Made by a program: the position numbers and the translations under genes. This document shows, piece after piece, positions 1,849-27,241 of a stretch of DNA of 43,605 nt. A model generated the notes under the pieces. That model did not search any database and was not told where the DNA came from. It saw only the letters and a list, made by a program, of their open reading frames with translations. Every line of letters begins with the position of its first letter. The first letter of the stretch is position 1. The DNA is from Verrucomicrobiota bacterium JB024 (GTDB lineage: Bacteria > Verrucomicrobiota > Verrucomicrobiia > Opitutales > Cerasicoccaceae): NCBI GenBank assembly GCA_030673825.1, contig JAUTCS010000158.1, forward strand, positions 1 through 43,605. Direction: 5' to 3'.

Positions 1849-1923
1849 GGATAATAGTGCAATAATATAGGCCAAATGGCCATTGTTTTGAACAGGTAAT
1901 AGGATTATACTGCAACAATAAAA
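1849..1923 (+). promoter_or_regulatory. AraC-type operator/promoter module, copy 1 (two boxes 53 bp apart)
   Basis: Box A at 1849 reads GGATAATAGTGCAATAATA and box B at 1902 reads GGATTATACTGCAACAATAA, in the same orientation. Between them lies GGCC-N4-GGCCATTGTTTT. The same order, orientation and 53-bp spacing occur on the minus strand at 6622-6697. A spacing of 53 bp is about five helical turns, so both boxes face the same side of the DNA. Binding by the adjacent AraC-family regulator is inferred. Confidence 0.7.
1883..1911 (+). promoter_or_regulatory. sigma70-type promoter of the C-N lyase operon
   Basis: TTGTTT at 1883-1888 and TATACT at 1906-1911 are separated by exactly 17 bases. The -10 hexamer is embedded in operator box B, so a protein bound to that box would contact or block RNA polymerase. 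Predicted start near 1918, about 35 bases before the chosen ATG at 1953. Confidence 0.6.
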
Positions 1924-1952
1924 CCACCTGAAACACAAACGACGTGAAGACT

Positions 1953-3482
1953 ATGCCCAAGGCCATCCAATTACGTAAATTCCATACGCCCTATCCCAAT
2001 CCCTATGATTACGGGAGCTGGCGGACCTGCACCGGCGTCGAAAAAGCCTCTGAGCTGAATACTATCATCGCCGATTCGCAAAGGGACAGGAAGCAATACA
2101 GCAATCGGTTGACCTATTGCAGCCAGACGGATCAGGCTTGGGTCGTATGCCTGCACAAGGCCGGCGTTCTGGACGCGCAAACCACGGCCAGCCTTCTGCG
2201 CGGTTTGCAGCAGCTGCTGGATTCGGGCGAACACGGGCGGGGCGGAGAGAACTCGCTCATCCCGGTCTTGGACAACAACGAGGACCTCGCCAGTCTCATC
2301 AACCTGGGCCGCACCATGCAGGAGCCGATGAGCCGCCTGCAACTGCGGGACATGCTGGTGGACTTTTTCGACTACTTCCACGACTTCATGGAAACCGTGG
2401 CTGACTTCGCCGAAAAGCATGCCGAGGCGATTATGCCCGGGCACACGCATTTTTCGCAGGCCAATCCGATCACGCTCGCCAACTACGCACTCTCCATTTT
2501 CGACAACATGGCCCGCGGTTTGGAGCAGCTGGAACTCTCTTACAAGCTGATCAATAAAAACAGCGGCGGGTGCGGGGCCACTTCGGGGACAGCCTGGCCG
2601 GTCGACCGCGAACTGATGACGCAATACCTGGGAATGGATGAGCTGCTGGAAGTGACCTATGACTGTGAGGCGAGCCAGGACCATACGATGCACCTGATGT
2701 TCTCTATCGCCAACATTGCCGCAACCTTGAGCAAGCTGACCATGGATATTGAAATCTGGAGCCTGGAGGAAATCGGCATGCTTCACATCGATCCGAAATT
2801 CGCCGGGGTGAGCTCCATGATGCCGCAAAAATGCCACAACGGAGAAATCACCGAGGGTTTGCGTAATGTCCTCTGCGACTTGATGGGTATCCCCGTGACC
2901 GGCCTGTTCCGGACCAAGGCGGAGCCCCACGCGGACGTGCTGGCTATGTATTCTTTCCCGGAAAAGGGCATGGAATCCCTGGCCAAAGGCAAACAGGCCA
3001 TACGGCACGCGGACGTCATGCTGCGTAACCTGCACGTGCATCCGGACACCATGCTGCGACTTGTGCGCGAAGGCTACTCCTGCATGACCGAAGTCGTCGT
3101 CCACCTGGTGCGCGAGCTGGGCTACGGCGGTCGGCGCTCGCACCGCATCTGCGCGACCCTCGTGCGTCTGGCCCGGCAACGCGGCATCAAAGCGCAGGAC
3201 CTGACCGCCGACATGCTCGACGAAGCCGCCCGCGCCTGCGGTGAAGAGCCGCCCGGCCTGACGACCGATACGCTGCAACAGTGCCTCGACCCGGTGGCAT
3301 TCATTCACAGTCATGGAAATATTGGCGGCCCGGCACCGGCTGAGACGACGCGCCTTGTGGCCAAGCGACGCCTCGCCCTTGTCGAAGCCCGCTCCCGGCA
3401 GCAGAATCGTCGGCAACGTATCGCCCGGGGGCGGAAGAGTCTCCAGCGCGAGATAGACCTTATTTGCGCCGTGCCCGCCTAG
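1953..3482 (+). CDS. argininosuccinate lyase-like C-N lyase (aspartase/fumarase superfamily)
   Basis: 509 residues. Superfamily marks include GHTHFSQANPITLANY (about 163-178, like the ASL stretch GYTHLQRAQP), TSGTAWPVDRE, and the mobile signature loop GVSSMMPQKCHNGEITE starting at about 285, which holds the probable catalytic Ser. The usual SSxMPxKKNP is changed to SSMMPQKCHNG, so this is not a standard ArgH. No other arginine gene is nearby. It is first in an operon with an MmgE/PrpD protein 34 bases downstream. That pair recalls the C-N lyases and epimerases of iminodisuccinate and ethylenediamine-disuccinate breakdown, which split aspartate-type C-N bonds to release fumarate. A GTG nine bases upstream is possible; the ATG is preferred for its upstream GAAG. 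Exact substrate is not decided. Confidence 0.82.
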   Translation: MPKAIQLRKFHTPYPNPYDYGSWRTCTGVEKASELNTIIADSQRDRKQYSNRLTYCSQTDQAWVVCLHKAGVLDAQTTASLLRGLQQLLDSGEHGRGGENSLIPVLDNNEDLASLINLGRTMQEPMSRLQLRDMLVDFFDYFHDFMETVADFAEKHAEAIMPGHTHFSQANPITLANYALSIFDNMARGLEQLELSYKLINKNSGGCGATSGTAWPVDRELMTQYLGMDELLEVTYDCEASQDHTMHLMFSIANIAATLSKLTMDIEIWSLEEIGMLHIDPKFAGVSSMMPQKCHNGEITEGLRNVLCDLMGIPVTGLFRTKAEPHADVLAMYSFPEKGMESLAKGKQAIRHADVMLRNLHVHPDTMLRLVREGYSCMTEVVVHLVRELGYGGRRSHRICATLVRLARQRGIKAQDLTADMLDEAARACGEEPPGLTTDTLQQCLDPVAFIHSHGNIGGPAPAETTRLVAKRRLALVEARSRQQNRRQRIARGRKSLQREIDLICAVPA

Positions 3483-3516
3483 GCGTGCGCATGGAAACGC
3501 TCAACGCGACAGCCTT

Positions 3517-4962
3517 ATGTCCATCGCCCGTATCCTGGCTGAACTGGCCATCGAAACTGCACCCCAGGCGTTTACGCGCTCCAGCCGCGATGCCGCTCTC
3601 AAGATGCTGCTGGATACGTGCGGCTGCGCTTATTGCGGCATGGACGCCCCGGGTATTCGGGAGTTGATTGCCCTGGAGTACGAGCTGGCCGCCCCCGGCA
3701 ACGGTAGTGTTTTTTTCTCAGAGCGGAAGCTGAGCCTGCCCTCCGCAGCTTACAGTAACGCGGCCATGATGCACGCGTTGGATTTCGACAACAACTATCC
3801 CAAGGCGGACATTCACATCATGGCGATGGTGGTCCCTGTCGGCCTGGCCTGCTGCGAGGAAGCCGGAGCGAGCGGAAGGCAATTTATAGACAGCGTCATT
3901 CTGGGGGTGGAAGTTGCCGCTCGAATTGCCAAGCCCTACATGAGCGCCAAACGGCAACACTCTTACTTCCTGACCACGTCTCTGGTCGGGGGCTGGGGGG
4001 CGGTGGCCACGGCGGCCCGCTTGCTGGGCCTCACGGTGGATGAAACCGTGCATGCGATGGGCATCTACTACGCGCATACCTGTGGTAACCGGCAGGCCCT
4101 CCTGGAAAAATCTCTGACCAAACGCATTCAGCCGGCAATCGCAGCGAAAGCGGCGCTTTACTCGGTCTTGCTCGCCCGGCGGGGCATTACCGGGCCGGAG
4201 CAGGTATTCGAAGGCAAAGGCGGATTTTATCGCTGCTATACGCAAGACGAGCCACCTCCACGTGAAACGTTTACCGCGTCGGCCATTCATGCGATCGAAG
4301 AACTTTCCGTGAAGCATTTTCCAACCTGCGGCATTCATCATGCGAACATCGTTTCCGCGCTGCACTTAAAGCGAGAGTACGGTTTCGAACATGGTGACAT
4401 CAAACAAGTCGATTTCTTCTTGCACGAGGGCGGAGGGACTCTGGTCAGTATGCCATTTTTACCCGGAGCTTATCCGCAAATAGACACCCAATTTTGCGCC
4501 CCTTACGCGATTGCCTTGGCCTTGAACAAGGCAGAAGTGTCCGTTGGCGATTTTGATACAAAGAAAATTCTAGAGGACACCGACACATGGGAACTGGCTC
4601 AACGAACCAGGGAGCAAGTACGCTTCGTGGATATGAATCTGAAGCGATATGCCGAGCCCAGGCCTGACTGCAAGTACACCAAGGTAACGCTGCATGACGG
4701 ACGTGTGTTTGAACACGAGCAGGCGAGCGGGGTGCTCAATGACCCCGCATCGATGGGAGTTGCTGAAGTCCGCAATAAGTTCCGGCAGTGTGTCACGATG
4801 CATGGGGATGTTGACCCGGCTCAGGTTGAAAGAATCGCGGATACGATTTTAGACGTCGAGCAGGCGGATCGTATGGGAGAGTGGATTGTCCACATTTTTT
4901 CGAAGAAGCCGCACGCCCAAATGCCGTCGTATTGTTTAGCTGACAGCTCCTCGGCAGGGTAA
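3517..4962 (+). CDS. MmgE/PrpD family protein (2-methylcitrate dehydratase / iminodisuccinate epimerase-like)
   Basis: 481 residues spanning the MmgE/PrpD fold: the N-terminal helical domain contains ALDFDNNYPKADIHIMAMVVPVGLA, the motif region that usually reads D..D...HP/G in this family. The C-terminal part contains VKHFPTCGIHHANIVSALHLK (usual K.yp.C...h). Family members include PrpD, cis-aconitate decarboxylase and iminodisuccinate epimerase. No propionate genes (prpB, prpC) are present, while an ASL-like C-N lyase lies immediately upstream, favouring an epimerase or isomerase that supplies the stereoisomer the lyase uses. It ends two bases before the next start codon, indicating translational coupling with the permease. 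Confidence 0.8.
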   Translation: MSIARILAELAIETAPQAFTRSSRDAALKMLLDTCGCAYCGMDAPGIRELIALEYELAAPGNGSVFFSERKLSLPSAAYSNAAMMHALDFDNNYPKADIHIMAMVVPVGLACCEEAGASGRQFIDSVILGVEVAARIAKPYMSAKRQHSYFLTTSLVGGWGAVATAARLLGLTVDETVHAMGIYYAHTCGNRQALLEKSLTKRIQPAIAAKAALYSVLLARRGITGPEQVFEGKGGFYRCYTQDEPPPRETFTASAIHAIEELSVKHFPTCGIHHANIVSALHLKREYGFEHGDIKQVDFFLHEGGGTLVSMPFLPGAYPQIDTQFCAPYAIALALNKAEVSVGDFDTKKILEDTDTWELAQRTREQVRFVDMNLKRYAEPRPDCKYTKVTLHDGRVFEHEQASGVLNDPASMGVAEVRNKFRQCVTMHGDVDPAQVERIADTILDVEQADRMGEWIVHIFSKKPHAQMPSYCLADSSSAG

Positions 4963-4964
4963 GT

Positions 4965-5696
4965 ATGGCCGCGCAACTCATCTTGATTCTGCTGGCGATA
5001 CTGCTCGCTGCCATTATCCAGGCGAGTACCGGCTTTGGCTTTGGCCTGGTTGCAGTTGGTATCCTCACGGTGTTCATGCCGGTGCAGGATGCGGCGTTTT
5101 TGAACGCGCTGCCTGCCTTGGCTCTGAATCTGACCCTGATATGGCGCCTGTATCAATATTTGCAGTGGGACGACCTGAAGTGGATTGCCCTGGCGATCAT
5201 TCTGGCTACTCCCATCGGCGTGGTCGGGCTTCTCATGCTGAATGCCAGGGTCATGAACGGAATACTCGCGATGGTGCTGGCTGTCGCCATCTTGCGTTCG
5301 GTGTTTAACCGTAGCGGAGCACGGCCCTGGCATCCATTCTGGCTAGGATTTCCGATGGGGATTCTCTCTGGACTGTTGGCCGGTGCGTACGGAACGGGTG
5401 GCCCCCCGGTCATCGCTTATGTTCAATCCTATCGCTACGAAATGCACCGGCATGTGGTGTGTCTCCAATTGCTCCTGGCTATCGCAGGAACAATACGTGT
5501 CATTTCCCTGCTGATGCAGAACGCGTTAACGGTTGAGCAATGGATGCTCAATGGTATCGGCGTGTTGGTCATTCCTCTCGGGGCACTGATCGGGCTGTAT
5601 CTTCTTCGCCGCTTGCCTCACAGCTTACTTCGCAACGCCATCCTGGCCATGCTCGTCTTGATCATGGTTAATTGTCTTGTTCGCAGCCTTGTTTAG
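4965..5696 (+). CDS. TauE/SafE (TSUP) family membrane transporter
   Basis: 243 residues, almost entirely hydrophobic with about eight predicted membrane helices. It has the two TSUP signature stretches: ASTGFGFGLVAVG near residue 20 and GLLAGAYGTGGPPVIAY near residue 140. Family members move sulfite, sulfonates or organic anions. It starts two bases after the MmgE/PrpD stop, so it is the third gene of the C-N lyase operon and probably carries a substrate or product of those enzymes. Direction and substrate cannot be read from sequence. Confidence 0.85.
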   Translation: MAAQLILILLAILLAAIIQASTGFGFGLVAVGILTVFMPVQDAAFLNALPALALNLTLIWRLYQYLQWDDLKWIALAIILATPIGVVGLLMLNARVMNGILAMVLAVAILRSVFNRSGARPWHPFWLGFPMGILSGLLAGAYGTGGPPVIAYVQSYRYEMHRHVVCLQLLLAIAGTIRVISLLMQNALTVEQWMLNGIGVLVIPLGALIGLYLLRRLPHSLLRNAILAMLVLIMVNCLVRSLV

Positions 5697-5803
5697 AGGC
5701 CGACTTCGCTCAAGCACCTCTGTGAGCACTTTCCGTTTCTACGTGTATGGCCGCTTGTCGTCGGTTGTGGCTTGGTGGAAGGGTTGGTTAACGTGCATGA
5801 AGA

Positions 5804-5830
5804 AAACCCGCTTCGAGGTGAAGCGGGTTT
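5804..5830. terminator. bidirectional hairpin terminator
   Basis: Perfect 11-bp stem AAACCCGCTTC / GAAGCGGGTTT with a 5-base loop, flanked by A- and T-containing arms. It lies between the convergent TauE/SafE gene and the PEP-CTERM gene and can serve both. Confidence 0.8.
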
Positions 5831-5853
5831 CCCGGGGAATGATGAATTTATGA

Positions 5854-6567
5854 CTAGCTTCGGCGCTTGCGCAGCAAGGCAGCCATTGCAAATACGCCCA
5901 CGCCCAATGCGAGTGCGAGGGTTCCCGGTTCGGGTACAGCCGTGATGGACAAGGTCGAGCCACCCGAGACCGATTCCTTGGAATCGAATTTATTGAAGAA
6001 AGAGGTGCCATCGGTATTGACGATGATAAAGGTGGCAATGCCCTCGCTGAGCATGCTATTCGCGTAATCAACCAATTCGGCGGTGCTAAGTGTTTGTGCG
6101 ACACCTTCGTCATCAGGCACGAGGTCGGAGTAGCTTCCAATATAAGTAAGGCCGGAGGTATCCAACTGACCATCGATAAATGTGAGGCCGCTGTTGTTCC
6201 ATGTCAGGGTGCTCTCATTGAAGTCTAAACTGGCACCGCCGACAGGGATCCCGTAAATGGAAAAATCCTGAGACGAACTGAAATTAATATCTTGAGGAAT
6301 CACCGTGAGCACTGCATCGGCAACCGTACCTTCAGTATACGAGCTAAGATCGAAACGGATGAGGGTGTAGCGCACTCTGTCTGCATACAGCGAACTTTCG
6401 GGTACCAACGCGTTTAGATTGGTGTTCGCGCCATAGTTGGCATCGGGGTTCGCGATGCTGATAAAGGTGTCGGCATCAGTATCCAGAACGACCGCCGAGG
6501 CTGGTGTAGAAATTGCGAGTAGGCCACAGATGGTCAATAGGCCGGGCGTGATATTGATGTAATGCAT
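5854..6567 (-). CDS. secreted DNRLRE-domain protein with PEP-CTERM anchor
   Basis: 237 residues. A signal peptide ends near STPASA. The start of the mature part, DTDADTFISIANPDANYGANTNL, matches the opening of DNRLRE domains, beta-sandwich modules of secreted proteins. The C-terminus is a classical PEP-CTERM sorting tail: VPEPGTL, a hydrophobic helix and terminal RKRRS, processed by exosortase. The ATG at 6567 is preferred over the GTG 42 bases upstream because it directly precedes the signal peptide. It carries the same promoter/operator module as the C-N lyase operon, so it is probably co-regulated by the AraC-family protein. Its role in that pathway is unknown. Confidence 0.85.
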   Translation of the reverse strand: MHYINITPGLLTICGLLAISTPASAVVLDTDADTFISIANPDANYGANTNLNALVPESSLYADRVRYTLIRFDLSSYTEGTVADAVLTVIPQDINFSSSQDFSIYGIPVGGASLDFNESTLTWNNSGLTFIDGQLDTSGLTYIGSYSDLVPDDEGVAQTLSTAELVDYANSMLSEGIATFIIVNTDGTSFFNKFDSKESVSGGSTLSITAVPEPGTLALALGVGVFAMAALLRKRRS

Positions 6568-6621
6568 TGTATGATTGGGGTTCGTGTTTGTGTAGCGATT
6601 AAAGGGCACCTCGATTGCCCG

Positions 6622-6697
6622 TATTTTTATTGCATTATAGTCTTGATGAATCGCAAAAACAATGGGCTATAGGCCGGTTAAATTGCAGTATAATCCA
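6622..6697 (-). promoter_or_regulatory. AraC-type operator/promoter module, copy 2
   Basis: Read on the minus strand: distal box GGATTATACTGCAATTTAA starting at 6696, then GGCC-N4-GCCCATTGTTTT, then proximal box AGACTATAATGCAATAAAAA starting at 6643. The boxes are 53 bp apart, as in copy 1. The 14-mer GGATTATACTGCAA is identical to box B of copy 1. The promoter is TTGTTT (6662-6657), 17-base spacer, perfect TATAAT (6639-6634), with the -10 inside the proximal box. It drives the PEP-CTERM gene ending at 5854. Confidence 0.7.
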
Positions 6698-13958: not shown

Positions 13959-15014
13959 TCACGTCGCCCGGTCGTAAATATCAAGGGTGACGACCCCGTC
14001 CAAGGGAACGCCGTCCATGTACTTGCGGACGTTTTCGAGCACGAAGTTCCCGCAGGTCCGGTATTGATCCGCCGCCGGGCCGCCGATGTGCGGCGAGGCG
14101 ATGAGGTGATCGACGTGCATCAGCGGAGCTCCGGCATGCAACGGCTCTTGCCGGGCCACGTCCAGTGCGACGCGGATGCGCCCGGACTGGGCCTCCCGCA
14201 CCAGTGCCTCTTCCTCTACGACATGGCCGCGTCCTACATTGACGAAGACGGCATGATCCGGCAGGCAGGCCAGTACCTCGGCCGTTACTGAGCCTTCGGT
14301 GTCCAACCGCAGGGCCTCGCACTCGAAAAGAACTTCGCTGGTGCGGAACAACTCCTCCAGCGACTGGCACGGAGTCACGCCGTCCCGGCACATCAAGGCC
14401 CGGGGCACCCCGGCTGAATAGGCTGTGACCTCGACGTCGAAGGGCCGCAGGATATCCAGAATGCAACGGGCGATCGTTCCGTACCCGTGGATGCCAACCC
14501 GCTTGCCGCGCAGGACCATCGTCTGCAGGTAAAAGGCCGGGCGGGGGATGGAGGGGGAGTTGAAAATAGCCTGCTTCCACTGTCCCAGATTTCGCAGCGC
14601 GGCCAAGGCCAGCAGGACGGCATGCTCGGCTACCGACCACGCCACAATGTTCCCCCAGTTGGTAACCCGTCCGCCCTTTTCCAGAAACTCACGGGGCACC
14701 AGGTGCCGTATCGATCCCGCCGCGTATGCCACATATTGGAGCGCGCATTTCTCGTTGCGGATATGGCTCAGGGGGATGGGTGGCGTGCGCCAGGCTGCCA
14801 GGATGATTGTCGGGTTAACCTTCGCCAATAGCGCGGGCCAGTCGCCGGAAATCAGTGTCTCGTCCGAAAGCTGGTGGCACGTGACCTGCGTTTCCAGATC
14901 GCCCAGCGAATCCCCCAGGAAAAGCTGTCTTTCCTCCCCTGACATGGCCACGAGGAGAGTTTGGTTCGAGGCTGTGGGGGAGGCGTCGGTCGCAGAGGCT
15001 AAAGGCTGTGGCAT
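13959..15014 (-). CDS. D-isomer-specific 2-hydroxyacid dehydrogenase (left-arm copy)
   Basis: 351 residues. Rossmann NAD-binding motif GIHGYGTIARCIL (about 174-186). Catalytic triad of the family: Arg262 in VNVGRG, Glu290 in DVARQEP and His309 in SPHIGG. The N-terminal half keeps the family stretch NWGNIVAWSVAEHAVLLALAALR. The enzyme should interconvert a 2-oxo acid and a D-2-hydroxy acid with NAD(P)H. In a uronate locus a sugar-derived oxo acid is plausible but unproven. A LacI-type operator (15061-15074) lies 46 bases upstream of its ATG, between it and the LacI gene. The right arm has a paralogue in the same position after its LacI gene. Confidence 0.88.
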   Translation of the reverse strand: MPQPLASATDASPTASNQTLLVAMSGEERQLFLGDSLGDLETQVTCHQLSDETLISGDWPALLAKVNPTIILAAWRTPPIPLSHIRNEKCALQYVAYAAGSIRHLVPREFLEKGGRVTNWGNIVAWSVAEHAVLLALAALRNLGQWKQAIFNSPSIPRPAFYLQTMVLRGKRVGIHGYGTIARCILDILRPFDVEVTAYSAGVPRALMCRDGVTPCQSLEELFRTSEVLFECEALRLDTEGSVTAEVLACLPDHAVFVNVGRGHVVEEEALVREAQSGRIRVALDVARQEPLHAGAPLMHVDHLIASPHIGGPAADQYRTCGNFVLENVRKYMDGVPLDGVVTLDIYDRAT

Positions 15015-15060
15015 GTCGGAAACCTAGCACAGGCCCCGCACCCGCGAAATCCTTTGCTCT

Positions 15061-15074
15061 CTGACACAGTTCAA
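15061..15074. promoter_or_regulatory. LacI-type operator, site a
   Basis: CTGACACAGTTCAA, matching the locus consensus YTCACACAGTTGAG. It lies between LacI (minus) and the 2-hydroxyacid dehydrogenase (minus), 46 bases before the latter's start, equivalent to site c in the right arm. Confidence 0.6.
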
Positions 15075-15114
15075 ATCTGATGGTTAAAGAGATCTAGCCT
15101 CCTCTTAGATTGGC

Positions 15115-16149
15115 TCAAATCGTACTGCCTGGATTCCACTTTCCCTCGACGTGGATGCGCTGAGGAGAGTCCGGGACACCCCGTTCTCCCCGGTGCATCG
15201 CAGCCACGACAAAGTCCATCGCGACCGCGCCGATCCGGACGCTGTCCTCGACGATGCCGCTCATCCGCGCATCCGGCGCGGGCAGGCACGGCGAAGCCAC
15301 CGCGATATCTTCCGGCACTCGCTTGCCCATTGCGGCCAGCACTTTGAGCGTCCGGACGTCCTCGACCATGATCGCATCGAGGCGGTTATCTTCCAGCCAG
15401 GCGGAAAAACGTTCCAGCGTCGCCGGCTCCTCCAGTATCTCGGCTGAATAATCCAGAAACGGTGGAATGTAATCTGAACTGGGGGCCAGTGGCCGGTTGA
15501 CGAGATAACCCGCCAGGTAGTTGCCGTTCGACCGCTCAATACTCACGCGCGCCATGGCCAGCCCGATACGCTCGTAGCCGAGGCCGCGCAGCCGATGGTA
15601 TAACTCCTGGGCGGCCAGGTAATGGGCTGCCGCCGTCATGTGCAGCCGGGGAGAAACGAGACTGTACCCGAAGGTGACGAGGGAGTAGTTCTCCCACGCC
15701 AACTCCATCCGCATGTGCGGCGCTGGTTGCGGGCACAGCAGAATCCCGCGTATATTACGGGCAGCGAAAATCGACATCAGGCGTTTGGTCGGCTGGACCG
15801 TTTCGTTCGCATCGAAGATATCCAACTGATAACCGTGCCGCCGCGCCTGCTCCGCCGCACCCTTGAAATAGTCGGAGTAGTGTGTGCTTTGGCGCCACTC
15901 AAACGAACCGCTGCTGTTGTGGAGCCAGGCGAGGGTCCCATGAAAAGCGGCCGGTCGACGGGACGCCCGGTAGATCGACAGGGCCGACAGCATCGGATCT
16001 GGCGCGTAGCCCATCCGTTTGGCAATGGCGAGGATGCGCTCTTTGGTCGTCGAGGCAATGGACGCGTGATTCGAAAACGCCATCGACACCGTCGAACGGG
16101 CGACGCCCGCCTCTTTGGCGATGTCCTTCTGAGAAACACGTTTTCCCAT
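15115..16149 (-). CDS. LacI-family transcriptional regulator (left-arm copy)
   Basis: 344 residues. N-terminal HTH VSQKDIAKEAGVARSTVSMAFSNH followed by the hinge region (GYAPDPMLSALSIYR). The periplasmic-binding-protein-like sensor domain follows from about residue 65. The ATG at 16149 puts the HTH at the very N-terminus as in relatives; a TTG 42 bases upstream would add a non-family extension. It is paralogous along its full length to the regulator at 19393-20439 (shared ARNI.GILLCPQP, WEN, VTFGY, RVPED, HRGERG). The two presumably bind the same or overlapping operators. It lies downstream of the sulfatase by 176 bases and upstream of the dehydrogenase by 100. Confidence 0.9.
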   Translation of the reverse strand: MGKRVSQKDIAKEAGVARSTVSMAFSNHASIASTTKERILAIAKRMGYAPDPMLSALSIYRASRRPAAFHGTLAWLHNSSGSFEWRQSTHYSDYFKGAAEQARRHGYQLDIFDANETVQPTKRLMSIFAARNIRGILLCPQPAPHMRMELAWENYSLVTFGYSLVSPRLHMTAAAHYLAAQELYHRLRGLGYERIGLAMARVSIERSNGNYLAGYLVNRPLAPSSDYIPPFLDYSAEILEEPATLERFSAWLEDNRLDAIMVEDVRTLKVLAAMGKRVPEDIAVASPCLPAPDARMSGIVEDSVRIGAVAMDFVVAAMHRGERGVPDSPQRIHVEGKWNPGSTI

Positions 16150-16325
16150 GCCGTTGGCGGCAGCAATCCACAGATTCAAGCGCCTTGTCAAGCTGCTTCA
16201 CATTCGGGGAGGGGAAGCCGCCTGGACCTGACAATGGTCCGACACCTGAGTCTGCGCAATCTCGTGCTGGTGTTGCCTGGACGCACAAAGGTCTCGCTTA
16301 GCCTTTAAAGGCGAACTTTCGCTCA

Positions 16326-19384: not shown

Positions 19385-19391
19385 AGTTGAA
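19378..19391. promoter_or_regulatory. LacI-type operator, site b
   Basis: CTAACACAGTTGAA, ending one base before the ATG of the LacI gene at 19393. Bound regulator would block its own gene and could also control the divergent lipoprotein/sulfatase operon starting at 19331. Confidence 0.65.
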
Positions 19392-19392
19392 A

Positions 19393-20439
19393 ATGGCTGA
19401 CAAGCGTGTTACCCAGCAGGACATTGCGACGAAGCTCGGCCTGCATCGTTCGACTGTGTCCTTATCCCTGCGCAATCATCCGAGTATTTCTCTTGCCACC
19501 CGCCAGGAGGTTGCCCGTTTGGCCGAAAAACTCGGTTACCAGCCTGATCCCATGCTGACGGCATTGGCGGCCTATCGAGAGCGCAATCGCCCCGCAAACT
19601 TTGAGGGCACGCTGGCCTGGGTCTTCAGCAGTGCGGGTGGTTTCGACTGGAAGCGTCCGCCGCTGTACCGTCAGTATTTTCAGGGGGCGCAGGCTCAGGC
19701 CCAACGGCATGGATACCGCCTGGAGGTCCATGACATCAACAGCGAAGGCATGACGCCGCGGCGGATGGCGAATATTCTGCTGGCCCGCAATATCCAAGGC
19801 ATCCTGCTTTGTCCGCAGCCGACGGCCGAGGGGGAAATTGACCTGCCTTGGGAGAACTTTTCGGCGGTAACCTTTGGCTATACCCTGAAAAAACCGAACC
19901 TTCACCGAGTGACGGCGACACAGTATCGGGGGATTGCTCTGGTCCTGAGCAAGCTGCGGGAGCTCGGCTACAGAAAAATAGGGTTCGCTCTGGTTGAAAA
20001 AACCGATCGGCGGGTGGATCACAGTTATCTAGCTGCCTATGTCGTGGATGATTACCTGCATGGCGCACATTTTAACGTTCCGCCCCTGACGGTCGATCAT
20101 CGCCGGGATCATCCAGCGCTGTTGGAGTGGATTAAGCGCTACCAGATGGATGTGGTAGTGACGGTAGACCCTTTGACACTGGGTATTTTGCGCGAACACG
20201 GTGTACGGGTGCCGGAGGATGTCGGGTTGGCCTGTTCCTGTCTCGAGACCACGGAAGGGGAGATGAGCGGATTGTGCGAGAACTCGATTGAGATCGGAAA
20301 AACGGCGGTGGACTTTCTGGTCGCCATGATCCATCGCGGAGAGCGCGGAATCCCCCAGCATCCCCATCATTTACTGGTGGAGGGAACCTGGGTCCCGGGC
20401 AAAACTGTGCGCAAGCAACGAGTCGCCTCAACTGTGTGA
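19393..20439 (+). CDS. LacI-family transcriptional regulator (right-arm copy)
   Basis: 348 residues. HTH RVTQQDIATKLGLHRSTVSLSLRNH at the N-terminus, hinge GYQPDPMLTALAAYR, then the two-lobed sensor domain (NIQGILLCPQP, WENFSAVTFGYTL, ELGYRKIGFAL, RVPEDVGLACS, HRGERGIPQHP). A TTG two codons upstream is also in frame; the ATG is preferred. It is paralogous to the left-arm LacI, more alike to it than to the third LacI at 35478. Operator b touches its start and operator c overlaps its stop codon, arguing for autoregulation and control of the following dehydrogenase. Confidence 0.9.
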   Translation: MADKRVTQQDIATKLGLHRSTVSLSLRNHPSISLATRQEVARLAEKLGYQPDPMLTALAAYRERNRPANFEGTLAWVFSSAGGFDWKRPPLYRQYFQGAQAQAQRHGYRLEVHDINSEGMTPRRMANILLARNIQGILLCPQPTAEGEIDLPWENFSAVTFGYTLKKPNLHRVTATQYRGIALVLSKLRELGYRKIGFALVEKTDRRVDHSYLAAYVVDDYLHGAHFNVPPLTVDHRRDHPALLEWIKRYQMDVVVTVDPLTLGILREHGVRVPEDVGLACSCLETTEGEMSGLCENSIEIGKTAVDFLVAMIHRGERGIPQHPHHLLVEGTWVPGKTVRKQRVASTV

Positions 20440-20440
20440 G
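20427..20440. promoter_or_regulatory. LacI-type operator, site c
   Basis: CTCAACTGTGTGAG (reverse complement CTCACACAGTTGAG), with perfect CTCA/TGAG arms. It overlaps the LacI stop codon and lies 52 bases before the dehydrogenase start, the same relative position as site a in the left arm. Confidence 0.65.
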
Positions 20441-20492
20441 CTCACCCGGCATCGTCAGCGTATTCTGATCGAGTCAGAGTGGGTCTGTTTTC

Positions 20493-21533
20493 ATGAACAG
20501 ACCTTTATCCCAAAATTTACCGGAGGCACCACCGCGCCCGAAAGTCCATCGCCTGGCTTGTGCCATTTTGGAACGGGACCGCAGGCGTTTTTTTCCGGAT
20601 GGACTGAGGGTGGATGGTTGCGAGATCGCCGAGATGAGCATGCGTCCGGATTCCTGGCTCGAGGAGCTGGAGACGTTTAATCCGGACATCCTGCTTTCTG
20701 GTTGGGCCACGCCGGTATTACCCGCGTCATGGTTCGAGAGCGGGCGCAGTCGTCTGGCCTACATTTGCAACATTACCGGTTCGGTTCGCAAGTTTCTCCC
20801 TAGATGTTTTCTGGAGAGCGGAGGGCTAGTGTCCAACTGGGGTGCGCTGTGTGCTCCCCAGGTCGCCGAACATGCCCTGCTGCTCGCCCTCTCGGCGTTA
20901 CGTAAGCAGTCTGTCTGGCGCGAGTTTATGATGACACCCTTGCGGGACCGCGATTGGCGGAACCTCGAGACACAGACGCTCCATGGTCGTCGGGTCGGCA
21001 TACACGGTTTTGGCCATGTCGCGCGCGCATTGGTGCTGCTGCTTCAGCCGTTTGGAGTGACGGTCGAAGCCTACTCGGAGGGAGTGCCCGCATCGTTGAT
21101 GCGGAAGATGGACGTTCAACCGGTTGCCTCGCTCTCCGAGCTTTTTCACCGCAGCGAGGTGCTTTTTGAATGCGAGGCCCTGACCATCCGGTCTGAGGAC
21201 AGCGTTGACGCTGAACTATTGGCTCAGTTGCCCGATGGCGCGGTCTTTGTTAATGTCGGGCGGGGCAAGGTTGTGGTCGAACCGGCCTTGATCGCTGAAG
21301 CCGCCTCCGGGCGGATTCATGTCGCGCTGGATGTGTGCGTGTCCGATCCGGTCCAACCGGGAGCCGTCTTGCTCGATGTTCCTCAGATCATTCTTTCTCC
21401 GCATATCGCCGGTCCAACTATCGATCAGTTCCCGGCTCTGGGGCGGCAAGCGTTGGTCAATCTCCAACGCTTTGTACGCGGTGAGCCGCTGGAAAATTTA
21501 CTCACCTTGGAAATCTATGACCGTTCAACCTGA
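20493..21533 (+). CDS. D-isomer-specific 2-hydroxyacid dehydrogenase (right-arm copy)
   Basis: 346 residues, paralogous to the left-arm dehydrogenase throughout. NAD-binding GIHGFGHVARALV (about 169-181), catalytic Arg257 in VNVGRG and His304 in SPHIAG. The third catalytic position, normally Glu (DVxxxEP; Glu290 in the paralogue), is Asp285 here (DVCVSDP), a conservative change that could tune the His pKa or activity. N-terminal NWGALCAPQVAEHALLLALSALR matches the family. It follows LacI across operator c and is followed by operator d, 20 bases after its stop. Substrate presumably related to but possibly distinct from that of the left-arm copy. Confidence 0.87.
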   Translation: MNRPLSQNLPEAPPRPKVHRLACAILERDRRRFFPDGLRVDGCEIAEMSMRPDSWLEELETFNPDILLSGWATPVLPASWFESGRSRLAYICNITGSVRKFLPRCFLESGGLVSNWGALCAPQVAEHALLLALSALRKQSVWREFMMTPLRDRDWRNLETQTLHGRRVGIHGFGHVARALVLLLQPFGVTVEAYSEGVPASLMRKMDVQPVASLSELFHRSEVLFECEALTIRSEDSVDAELLAQLPDGAVFVNVGRGKVVVEPALIAEAASGRIHVALDVCVSDPVQPGAVLLDVPQIILSPHIAGPTIDQFPALGRQALVNLQRFVRGEPLENLLTLEIYDRST

Positions 21534-26224: not shown

Positions 26225-27241
26225 TCAGCGCAGGCGCGAGGGCGTCATCCATGGGTCCACCTCCGGGCCGATTTCCTCTTTCAGCGTTTCGCTGCTCAGC
26301 CATAAGCGGTCGATCAACACCGGATCAAGCCGCGCTTGCAGGACATTGGCATTTTCCCGGGCTTGGGCCGCGTTGCGGGCCCCTGCGATCACGGTAACCA
26401 CCTCCGGTTTTGACAGGAGTACGGTCAGTGCTGCCGTTGACATGGAGACGCCGGATGCTTCGCAGATATCCCGGATGCTCTTGATCGTGGCAAAGGTGGT
26501 TTTTTCGTGACCGGCCTCCCCATGACGGATTCTGGGGCGACCCTCGGCGGCAAAGTGCTTGGTGCGCGCGCGACCCTCGGGTACCTCGGCTGCGGAGGCG
26601 AATTTACCCGTGAGTAAGCCCTGCATGAGCGAGCTGTAAGTCATCAGCCTGATGCCGAGTCGTCGGCACAAGGGTAACAATTCGAACTCTGCGCCGCGCC
26701 AGAGCAGGCTGTAGGGGAGCTGGTTGGTGGATATCGGCATGAGGTCGGAGGCTTCGCGGAGATCCTCCACACCAAAATTACACACGCCGATAGCACGGAT
26801 TTTTCCTGCCTCTTTGAGTTCAATAAGGGCCTCGGCACTCTCGCCCATCGGCGTATCACGATCAGGCCAGTGGATTTGCAACAGGTCCACGTAGTCCGTT
26901 TGCAGGCGTCGCAGGCTGGCCTCACAGGAAGCTTTTATACCGGCAGCAGTCAGCGGAGCCATGACCTTATCGGCCAGGAAAATCTGCTCGCGGCGGTGCT
27001 TGAGGACCTCGCCCAGCAGGGTTTCGGAGGCACCGTCTCCGTACATCGGCGCAGTGTCGAACGCGGTAATCCCGGCCTCCAGGCTCGCTTCGATCGCTGC
27101 CTCGGAATCCGCCCGGGATTGCTGACCCCAGTTGGCATCGCCGATCAGCGACCAAGTGCCCAGCGTCACCGGGCTCAAAAGAGGCAAGGCGGGTGGGGGA
27201 GTATTGACAGAAGGTGAAAACGGCTCATTTCCCATATTCAT
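26225..27241 (-). CDS. aldo/keto reductase
   Basis: 338 residues, TIM-barrel AKR. Catalytic tetrad visible: Asp62 and Tyr67 (FDTAPMYGDGASE), Lys92 (LADKV) and His124 (LLQIHWPD). The family pattern GVCNFG follows, and the NADP-binding region appears as VIAGARNAAQARENA near the C-terminus. It should reduce a sugar aldehyde or ketone. In this locus a uronate or 4-deoxy-5-hexoseulose-uronate-type substrate is plausible. It is downstream of the mannonate dehydratase (91 bases) with operator e between them. Confidence 0.88.
   Translation of the reverse strand: MNMGNEPFSPSVNTPPPALPLLSPVTLGTWSLIGDANWGQQSRADSEAAIEASLEAGITAFDTAPMYGDGASETLLGEVLKHRREQIFLADKVMAPLTAAGIKASCEASLRRLQTDYVDLLQIHWPDRDTPMGESAEALIELKEAGKIRAIGVCNFGVEDLREASDLMPISTNQLPYSLLWRGAEFELLPLCRRLGIRLMTYSSLMQGLLTGKFASAAEVPEGRARTKHFAAEGRPRIRHGEAGHEKTTFATIKSIRDICEASGVSMSTAALTVLLSKPEVVTVIAGARNAAQARENANVLQARLDPVLIDRLWLSSETLKEEIGPEVDPWMTPSRLR

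Follow-up and report, generated by a model that had tools for sequence, protein, structure and literature searches.

Why would an operon for the breakdown of small molecules share a promoter with the gene of a presumably secreted PEP-CTERM protein? The question is raised by contig JAUTCS010000158.1 of Verrucomicrobiota bacterium JB024 (assembly GCA_030673825.1), of which we analysed one stretch of 43,605 nucleotides, hereafter the window. Two similar modules lie on opposite strands of the window. Module A (1849-1915, + strand) is located between a divergent AraC-family gene (934-1845, - strand) and a lyase operon (1953-5696, + strand), and module B (6696-6630, - strand) is located ahead of a DNRLRE/PEP-CTERM gene (6567-5854, - strand). 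We consider it probable that the modules define a small AraC-family regulon, whose shared operator-promoter module joins a pathway resembling ethylenediamine disuccinate (EDDS) lyase and iminodisuccinate (IDS) epimerase to secreted carbohydrate-related proteins.

Two predicted operator-promoter modules in the window

Modules A and B are identical in 44 of 67 columns. The next-best match to module A within the window reaches 31. Simulated windows peaked at 38 when given intergenic composition (40 windows) and at 37 when given window composition (40 windows). The two-module observation is confirmed as real. Each module consists of a first box, a middle element, and a third box that contains the -10 hexamer. 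In module A (+ strand) these are box 1 (1849-1862, GGATAATAGTGCAA), which spans approximately -69 to -56 relative to the predicted start and lies 3 bp from the regulator start codon, the middle element (1870-1886, GGCCAAATGGCCATTGT), and box 3 (1902-1915, GGATTATACTGCAA). The corresponding elements of module B (- strand) are box 1 (6683-6696, GGATTATACTGCAA), the middle element (6659-6675, GGCCTATAGCCCATTGT), and box 3 (6630-6643, AGACTATAATGCAA). The first-pass annotation had described two boxes at a spacing of 53 bp, with one pair of boxes identical over 14 bases. Box starts are indeed 53 bp apart in both modules, and 1902-1915 matches 6696-6683 exactly. Two further elements that it had named, GGCC-N4-G(C/G)CCATTGTTTT and TTGTTT-N17-TATACT/TATAAT, are also present in both. 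Its box consensus was GGATwATAsTGCAA, and the box at 6643-6630 is 3 mismatches away from it.

The predicted promoter of module A pairs a weak -35 element, TTGTTT (1883-1888, + strand), with a -10 element, TATACT (1906-1911, + strand), and has a predicted start near 1918. In module B, a weak TTGTTT (6657-6662, - strand) is paired with TATAAT (6639-6634, - strand), with a predicted start near 6627. Both -35 elements were read from the sequence and match the sigma-70 hexamer at 3 of 6 positions by eye. Both promoters are missing from the promoter-scan list because that scan has a threshold of 4 of 6. A weak -35 is as expected of an activator-dependent promoter. Module A also contains a candidate promoter for the divergent AraC gene (TTCAAA-17-TATATT; 1864-1892, - strand), and matches of this kind are no less common in shuffles.

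Only the paired pattern is distinctive. In the genome of the window (G000; 4.6 Mb, 163 contigs, 95% complete), a scan for two boxes at up to 3 mismatches returned modules A and B and nothing else, and a reversed control pattern returned no matches. The same two-box pattern had no match in the relatives G001, G002, G003 and G005. A short half-box pattern gave 4 forward and 5 reverse matches in G000, compared with 0 and 3 for its reversed control; the matches inside the window were taken further. The single box at up to 3 mismatches is not clearly enriched in the window and was dropped as evidence, since it has 7 matches against 4.7 expected, a count equalled or exceeded in 15 of 100 shuffles.

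The module in other genomes

A GTDB scan yielded three loci, on PBYS01000048.1 (Puniceicoccaceae metagenome-assembled genome (MAG) NP23), PWZG01000420.1 (a Planctomycetes-Verrucomicrobia-Chlamydiae (PVC) MAG) and DNNS01000108.1 (Spirochaetia MAG UBA12135). NP23 (G056) belongs to another family of the same order, Opitutales. Its lyase is 77% identical to that of the window, and it carries three modules, all with 53-bp spacing: one before the lyase operon (27041-27107, + strand), one before a DNRLRE/PEP-CTERM-type gene (37276-37210, - strand), and one before a glycoside hydrolase family 5 (GH5) gene with a secreted-looking product (43753-43687, - strand). The first-pass annotation had proposed to abandon the idea if the module were missing upstream of orthologous genes in relatives. 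It is present before the lyase operon and PEP-CTERM gene of G056; in the spirochaete MAG G696, the source of the Spirochaetia locus, it separates the AraC orthologue from what is left of a lyase gene. The module-bearing DNRLRE proteins of G000 and G056 share 36-38% identity and are reciprocal best hits among 28 domain matches (11 in G000 and 17 in G056). The next-closest DNRLRE paralogue of G056, on the same contig (C48:44126), lacks an upstream box by eye and gives no match to the module model described below. Beside the module-bearing PEP-CTERM-type gene of G056 there is a MmgE/PrpD gene remnant (L014:17851-17999, + strand), perhaps the trace of an older operon copy that stood next to this gene as it does in the window. 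An alginate-lyase-family gene (PF05426; L014:6866-7876, - strand) lies directly behind the G056 AraC orthologue on the same strand.

We built a sequence-only model, R1, from the five Opitutales modules and searched it in four chosen genomes and in genomes of the order. One extra partial match in G000 (C133, 12.4 bits, E 0.73) and one in G056 (C89, 14.4 bits) were not counted. In G696, R1 gave 13 matches at E <=10. The best five (C75 28.9, C343 25.3, C183 21.1, C111 15.7 and C415 15.3 bits) all lie just upstream, in the correct direction, of a lyase remnant or of genes with secreted-looking products; the eight weaker ones have E 0.53 to 8.0. A fixed 72-column matrix scored the same five at 37.3, 36.1, 28.6, 6.4 and 26.1 bits, respectively, and four of them exceed the maxima of five simulated G696-like genomes (14.7-23.9 bits). 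The C343 module has the AraC orthologue on one side and a decayed lyase N-terminus on the other, and the C415 module follows a lyase-epimerase pair and precedes a LamG/DUF2341 protein. The modules on C75, C183 and C111 precede genes with like N-termini and secreted-looking products. A GH20b domain together with a GH20 match below cut-off is found in the products downstream of C183 and C111; on C75 the following open frame encodes the GH20b domain, separated from the first by undetermined bases. The lyase fragment on C343 (L048, approximately 5340-5575) is directly behind the retained module. The intact G696 lyase is on C415, and the end of C415 cuts the lyase at a similar sequence. A regulon of two gene sets, as first predicted, describes G000, where only two were found, but not G056, with its third target (GH5), or G696, with several.

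Comparison of the modules also revises their architecture. Across the five Opitutales modules, the invariant columns are GGA..ATA.T..AA in box 1, CCATT in the middle element and GA.TATA.T.CA in box 3, with two further single invariant columns between box 1 and CCATT. The TATA and T of the -10 element are invariant, and G,A and C,A flank the hexamer within box 3 of every one of these modules. The outer boxes of G056 read TG(T/C)AA in the operon module and TACA(A/G) in the other two, in both outer boxes alike, as if the two outer boxes of one module changed together. When the outer-box matrix was applied to the G696 modules, it was positive at offsets 0, 21 and 53 and negative at all others from 14 to 55, with p 0.0004 at offset 21. 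The G696 middle elements include TGACTATAGTGCATTG on C111 and TGACTATAGTTCATTG on C183. What was first described as a spacer between two boxes is probably a third, weaker copy of the box: the outer boxes stand 53 bp apart as described, but the module is better read as three direct repeats at 0, 21 and 53. In module A the middle element, which we take for a degenerate box, starts 21 bp downstream of the start of box 1 and shares bases with the -35.

The system is rare. Lyase homologues at 1e-60 occur in 3 of 177 genomes of a draw of relatives (G000, G056, and G005, whose proteins reach only 45 and 30%) and, at 1e-150, in 2 of 387 genomes of the phylum (G000 and G056). No box pair is present at the two G005 lyase-like loci (L012 and L013) or at L015. 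In searches for AraC orthologues at E 1e-45, a draw of 372 order genomes and an overlapping draw of 367 phylum genomes each gave the same two, G000 and G056. At 1e-40, 1 of 296 genomes drawn from the phylum of G696 had an orthologue, namely G696. R1 at E 0.01 matched 5 of 342 order genomes, at full length only in G000 and G056; the other three gave four partial matches of 17.1-19.0 bits. These large searches score the best few candidates per genome, so weak module copies could be missed. Full-length module and AraC orthologue thus co-occur in G000, G056 and G696, and neither was found in the other genomes searched for each at the thresholds used. G697, a PVC MAG with a lyase pair and a 72% identical lyase, has no AraC orthologue and no R1 match. 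The patchy spread suggests that the system moved by transfer. A tblastn search of plasmids with the lyase gave no match at 1e-60, and viral contigs searched with the AraC and lyase alignments contained no relatives.

A candidate regulator and its proposed mode of action

The AraC-family protein (303 aa; 934-1845, - strand), our candidate regulator of both modules, has the domain make-up of AraC/XylS transcription regulators. Its C-terminus matches the double helix-turn-helix domain HTH_18 of Pfam (71.7 bits, cut-off 33.6), and its N-terminus matches the sensor domains AraC_binding (26.5 against 21.1) and Cupin_2 (27.4 against 27.2). Orthologues with 64% identity in G056 and 43% in G696 each adjoin a module, and in each of the three genomes with full modules a distance of 3 to 16 bp separates a module from the start of the regulator gene. 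We name this protein as the likely binder of both modules because of this linkage and co-occurrence.

We propose that the regulator binds the direct repeats at 0 and 21 bp, spanning approximately -69 to -32 and reaching the weak -35. An effector held in the N-terminal cupin-like domain would then lead to activation of the class II type. Without effector, or at a high regulator level, the same protein at the +53 copy, which covers the -10, would compete with polymerase or bridge sites, and the promoter would be shut. The regulator probably limits its own synthesis, since box 1 of the operon module lies so close to its own start codon. The direction of control, repression by loop or by steric hindrance, autoregulation, the effector and the substrate are all proposals made from sequence.

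The arrangement resembles the AraC/XylS class II system at the araBAD I1-I2 sites of E. coli, and RhaS and XylS are also class II regulators of this family. In both cases an HTH_18/AraC protein with an N-terminal sensor domain is encoded divergently from the operon, and the probable direct repeats here, whose spacing of about 21 bp brings the inner one up to a weak -35, correspond to I1 and I2 of E. coli, which are likewise 21 bp apart. Three points differ from araBAD: a further copy at 53 bp covers the -10, we recognised no O2-like site upstream (no search was aimed at one), and the targets include PEP-CTERM, GH5, GH20-like and LamG proteins. According to PMC11434276, the E. coli I2 site extends from -35 to -51 and overlaps the -35.

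Several observations weigh against the regulon as we read it. In the five Opitutales modules the outer-box matrix gives 21 as the best middle offset, but at p 0.16 the middle copy falls short of significance. The G696 modules used for the offset test were picked by R1, which already held the middle columns, and their box 1 was registered by hand. Box 3 in G696 is little more than a -10 in likeness, and the C111 module is off the 53-bp spacing, with a score reached approximately 105 times per simulated genome. The assignment of G696 to the spirochaetes rests on its record label, and some of its contigs could be mis-binned. L015 has a lyase pair with neither module nor regulator. In G056, a fourth two-box match occurs at C35:10475 with 3 mismatches. 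The G056 DNRLRE orthologue scores 27.9 bits against a family cut-off of 34, and it ends in VPEP...RRRRS by eye with no PF07589 match at E 0.001. Since descent or transfer connects the loci of G000 and G056, conservation in G056 is not fully independent. Finally, the C183 and C111 modules of G696 lie behind their own paralogous AraC genes. These genes (L050:5200-6174 and L051:8597-9565) have last codons (..EAKIVQ and EAKLVQ, then stop) that overlap box 1, so the two modules may answer to other regulators and the match is partly coding.

Three alternatives were weighed against activation by the AraC protein. In the first, which we judge unlikely, the protein is solely a repressor acting through box 1 and the -10 copy, and the middle element is a mere -35 region without any part in activation. 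Such a repressor would explain why box 3 falls on the -10 with its flanking G,A and C,A kept in the five Opitutales modules, and why the middle copy is weak in these modules. It fits poorly with the weak -35, with the positive score at offset 21 in G696, and with a box 1 centred near -62, a position more usual for activators. It is still less probable that another regulator binds the modules and that the AraC gene is simply a neighbour. Binding by the AraC protein is itself deduced from sequence, and the paralogues ahead of the C183 and C111 modules would suit this alternative, but the close placement of the orthologue beside a module in all three genomes with full modules, and the failure to find either one in the other genomes searched, argue against it. 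Copying of a promoter segment by recombination or a mobile element, with shared ancestry and no regulation, is scarcely credible: an insertion sequence (IS) transposase remnant lies at 1-636 and the window modules share 44 of 67 columns, but divergence at most other columns has spared the boxes, CCATT and the -10, and seven further copies with 53-bp spacing (three in G056, four in G696) each precede a gene or gene remnant. An origin as a mobile element is likewise unlikely, as the copies stand at promoters; no dedicated terminal-repeat search was made.

Predicted pathway, presumably secreted proteins and genomic setting

If the AraC protein activates both modules, one signal would turn on an intracellular pathway of three proteins. 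The first is an argininosuccinate lyase (ASL)/fumarase-superfamily lyase (509 aa; 1953-3482, + strand) with a PF00206 (Lyase_1) score of 75.7 bits. Its closest solved relatives are 6g3d and 6rx8, both argininosuccinate lyases by PDB name; we take 6g3d to be EDDS lyase. The SSMMPQK loop of the window protein aligns with SSIMPQK of 6g3d and fits the SSxMPxK pattern, and the protein falls below the ArgH equivalog cut-off (NCBIfam TIGR00838, 204.5 against 279.5 bits). The second is a MmgE/PrpD-family protein (3517-4962, + strand), placed in this fold family by PF03972 (188.4 bits) and PF19305 (65 bits), with IDS-epimerase 2hp3 as closest solved relative. The third is a TauE/SafE-family membrane transporter by Pfam (4965-5696, + strand). 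The relatives of EDDS lyase and IDS-epimerase are thus encoded adjacently in one operon, but the similarity is remote and the setting is one of polysaccharide degradation. EDDS cleavage and iminodisuccinate epimerisation are putative activities, assigned from the closest solved relatives.

The same signal would turn on secreted carbohydrate-related proteins: the DNRLRE/CBM96 PEP-CTERM protein in the window, GH5 in G056, and the GH20-like and LamG proteins in G696. Their secretion is predicted by eye from the N-terminal stretches. The window protein (237 aa; 5854-6567, - strand) matches PF24517 (42.2 bits) and NF033679 (48.4 bits), and its PEP-CTERM tail matches PF07589 (21.7 bits, cut-off 20.7). 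An 11-bp perfect hairpin between the convergent genes (5804-5830), followed by a T-rich stretch on the - strand, is a possible terminator of this gene; it was read from the sequence and is missing from the program scan.

A scan of part of the window's open reading frames identified heparinase II/III-like, sulfatase, chondroitinase-B-like, GH2 and GH32-like proteins along with an SSF symporter, two 2-hydroxyacid dehydrogenases and two LacI regulators, and we read the window as a polysaccharide-degradation neighbourhood. There are two LacI and 2-hydroxyacid dehydrogenase pairs in opposite orientation (13959-16191, - strand, and 19387-21533, + strand) with 44% and 45% mutual identity. At the left end of the window, the IS transposase remnant has a rve_3 match at 253-636 and an in-frame stop just before 253. 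The regulon most likely serves to degrade a polysaccharide or its substituents, and the substrate of the lyase would then be an N-substituted aspartate or similar adduct. The first-pass annotation knew of no precedent for a link between a secreted PEP-CTERM protein and a small-molecule operon. The conserved modules support the link itself, but with sulfatases, polysaccharide lyases and glycoside hydrolases all around the loci it is less surprising than that annotation held.

Searches of the open-licence literature found nothing relevant on AraC-regulated PEP-CTERM regulons, the lone match for AraC, PEP-CTERM and regulon concerning Staphylococcus, and nothing on PEP-CTERM with Verrucomicrob polysaccharide utilization regulators. 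Judged by title and abstract start, there was no relevant work on Puniceicocc, PEP-CTERM and AraC, and none on this operon among papers on EDDS lyase or on epimerase and iminodisuccin. The nearest parallel is the control of pepA in Aquincola by RpoN and PrsK-PrsR, which, according to PMC9850573, likewise gives a PEP-CTERM gene a dedicated regulatory input. The pepA promoter is described there as RpoN-dependent with sigma-54 -24/-12 GG/GC elements, whereas the modules here have a sigma-70-like -10 with AraC-type repeats. Our results suggest a PEP-CTERM protein under an AraC-type regulator, as opposed to the RpoN-dependent route set out in that paper.

Sequence tests in two other genomes, one of them assigned to another phylum, have thus upheld a regulon first proposed by eye from a single window. 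The operator sequence lets further members be found, and the co-regulated, apparently secreted proteins offer a handle on the substrates of the two enzymes by pointing to polysaccharide breakdown. A bolder and decidedly speculative extension is that a three-repeat switch, at 0, 21 and 53 with the last repeat on the -10, is common to Verrucomicrobiota and Spirochaetota, and that through it a single AraC protein coordinates two activities: the lyase, epimerase and transporter would strip an N-aspartyl-type substituent from a natural polysaccharide, while proteins that bind or cut glycans are displayed or secreted. If true, EDDS-lyase/IDS-epimerase-like pairs would have a natural function in the use of glycans.

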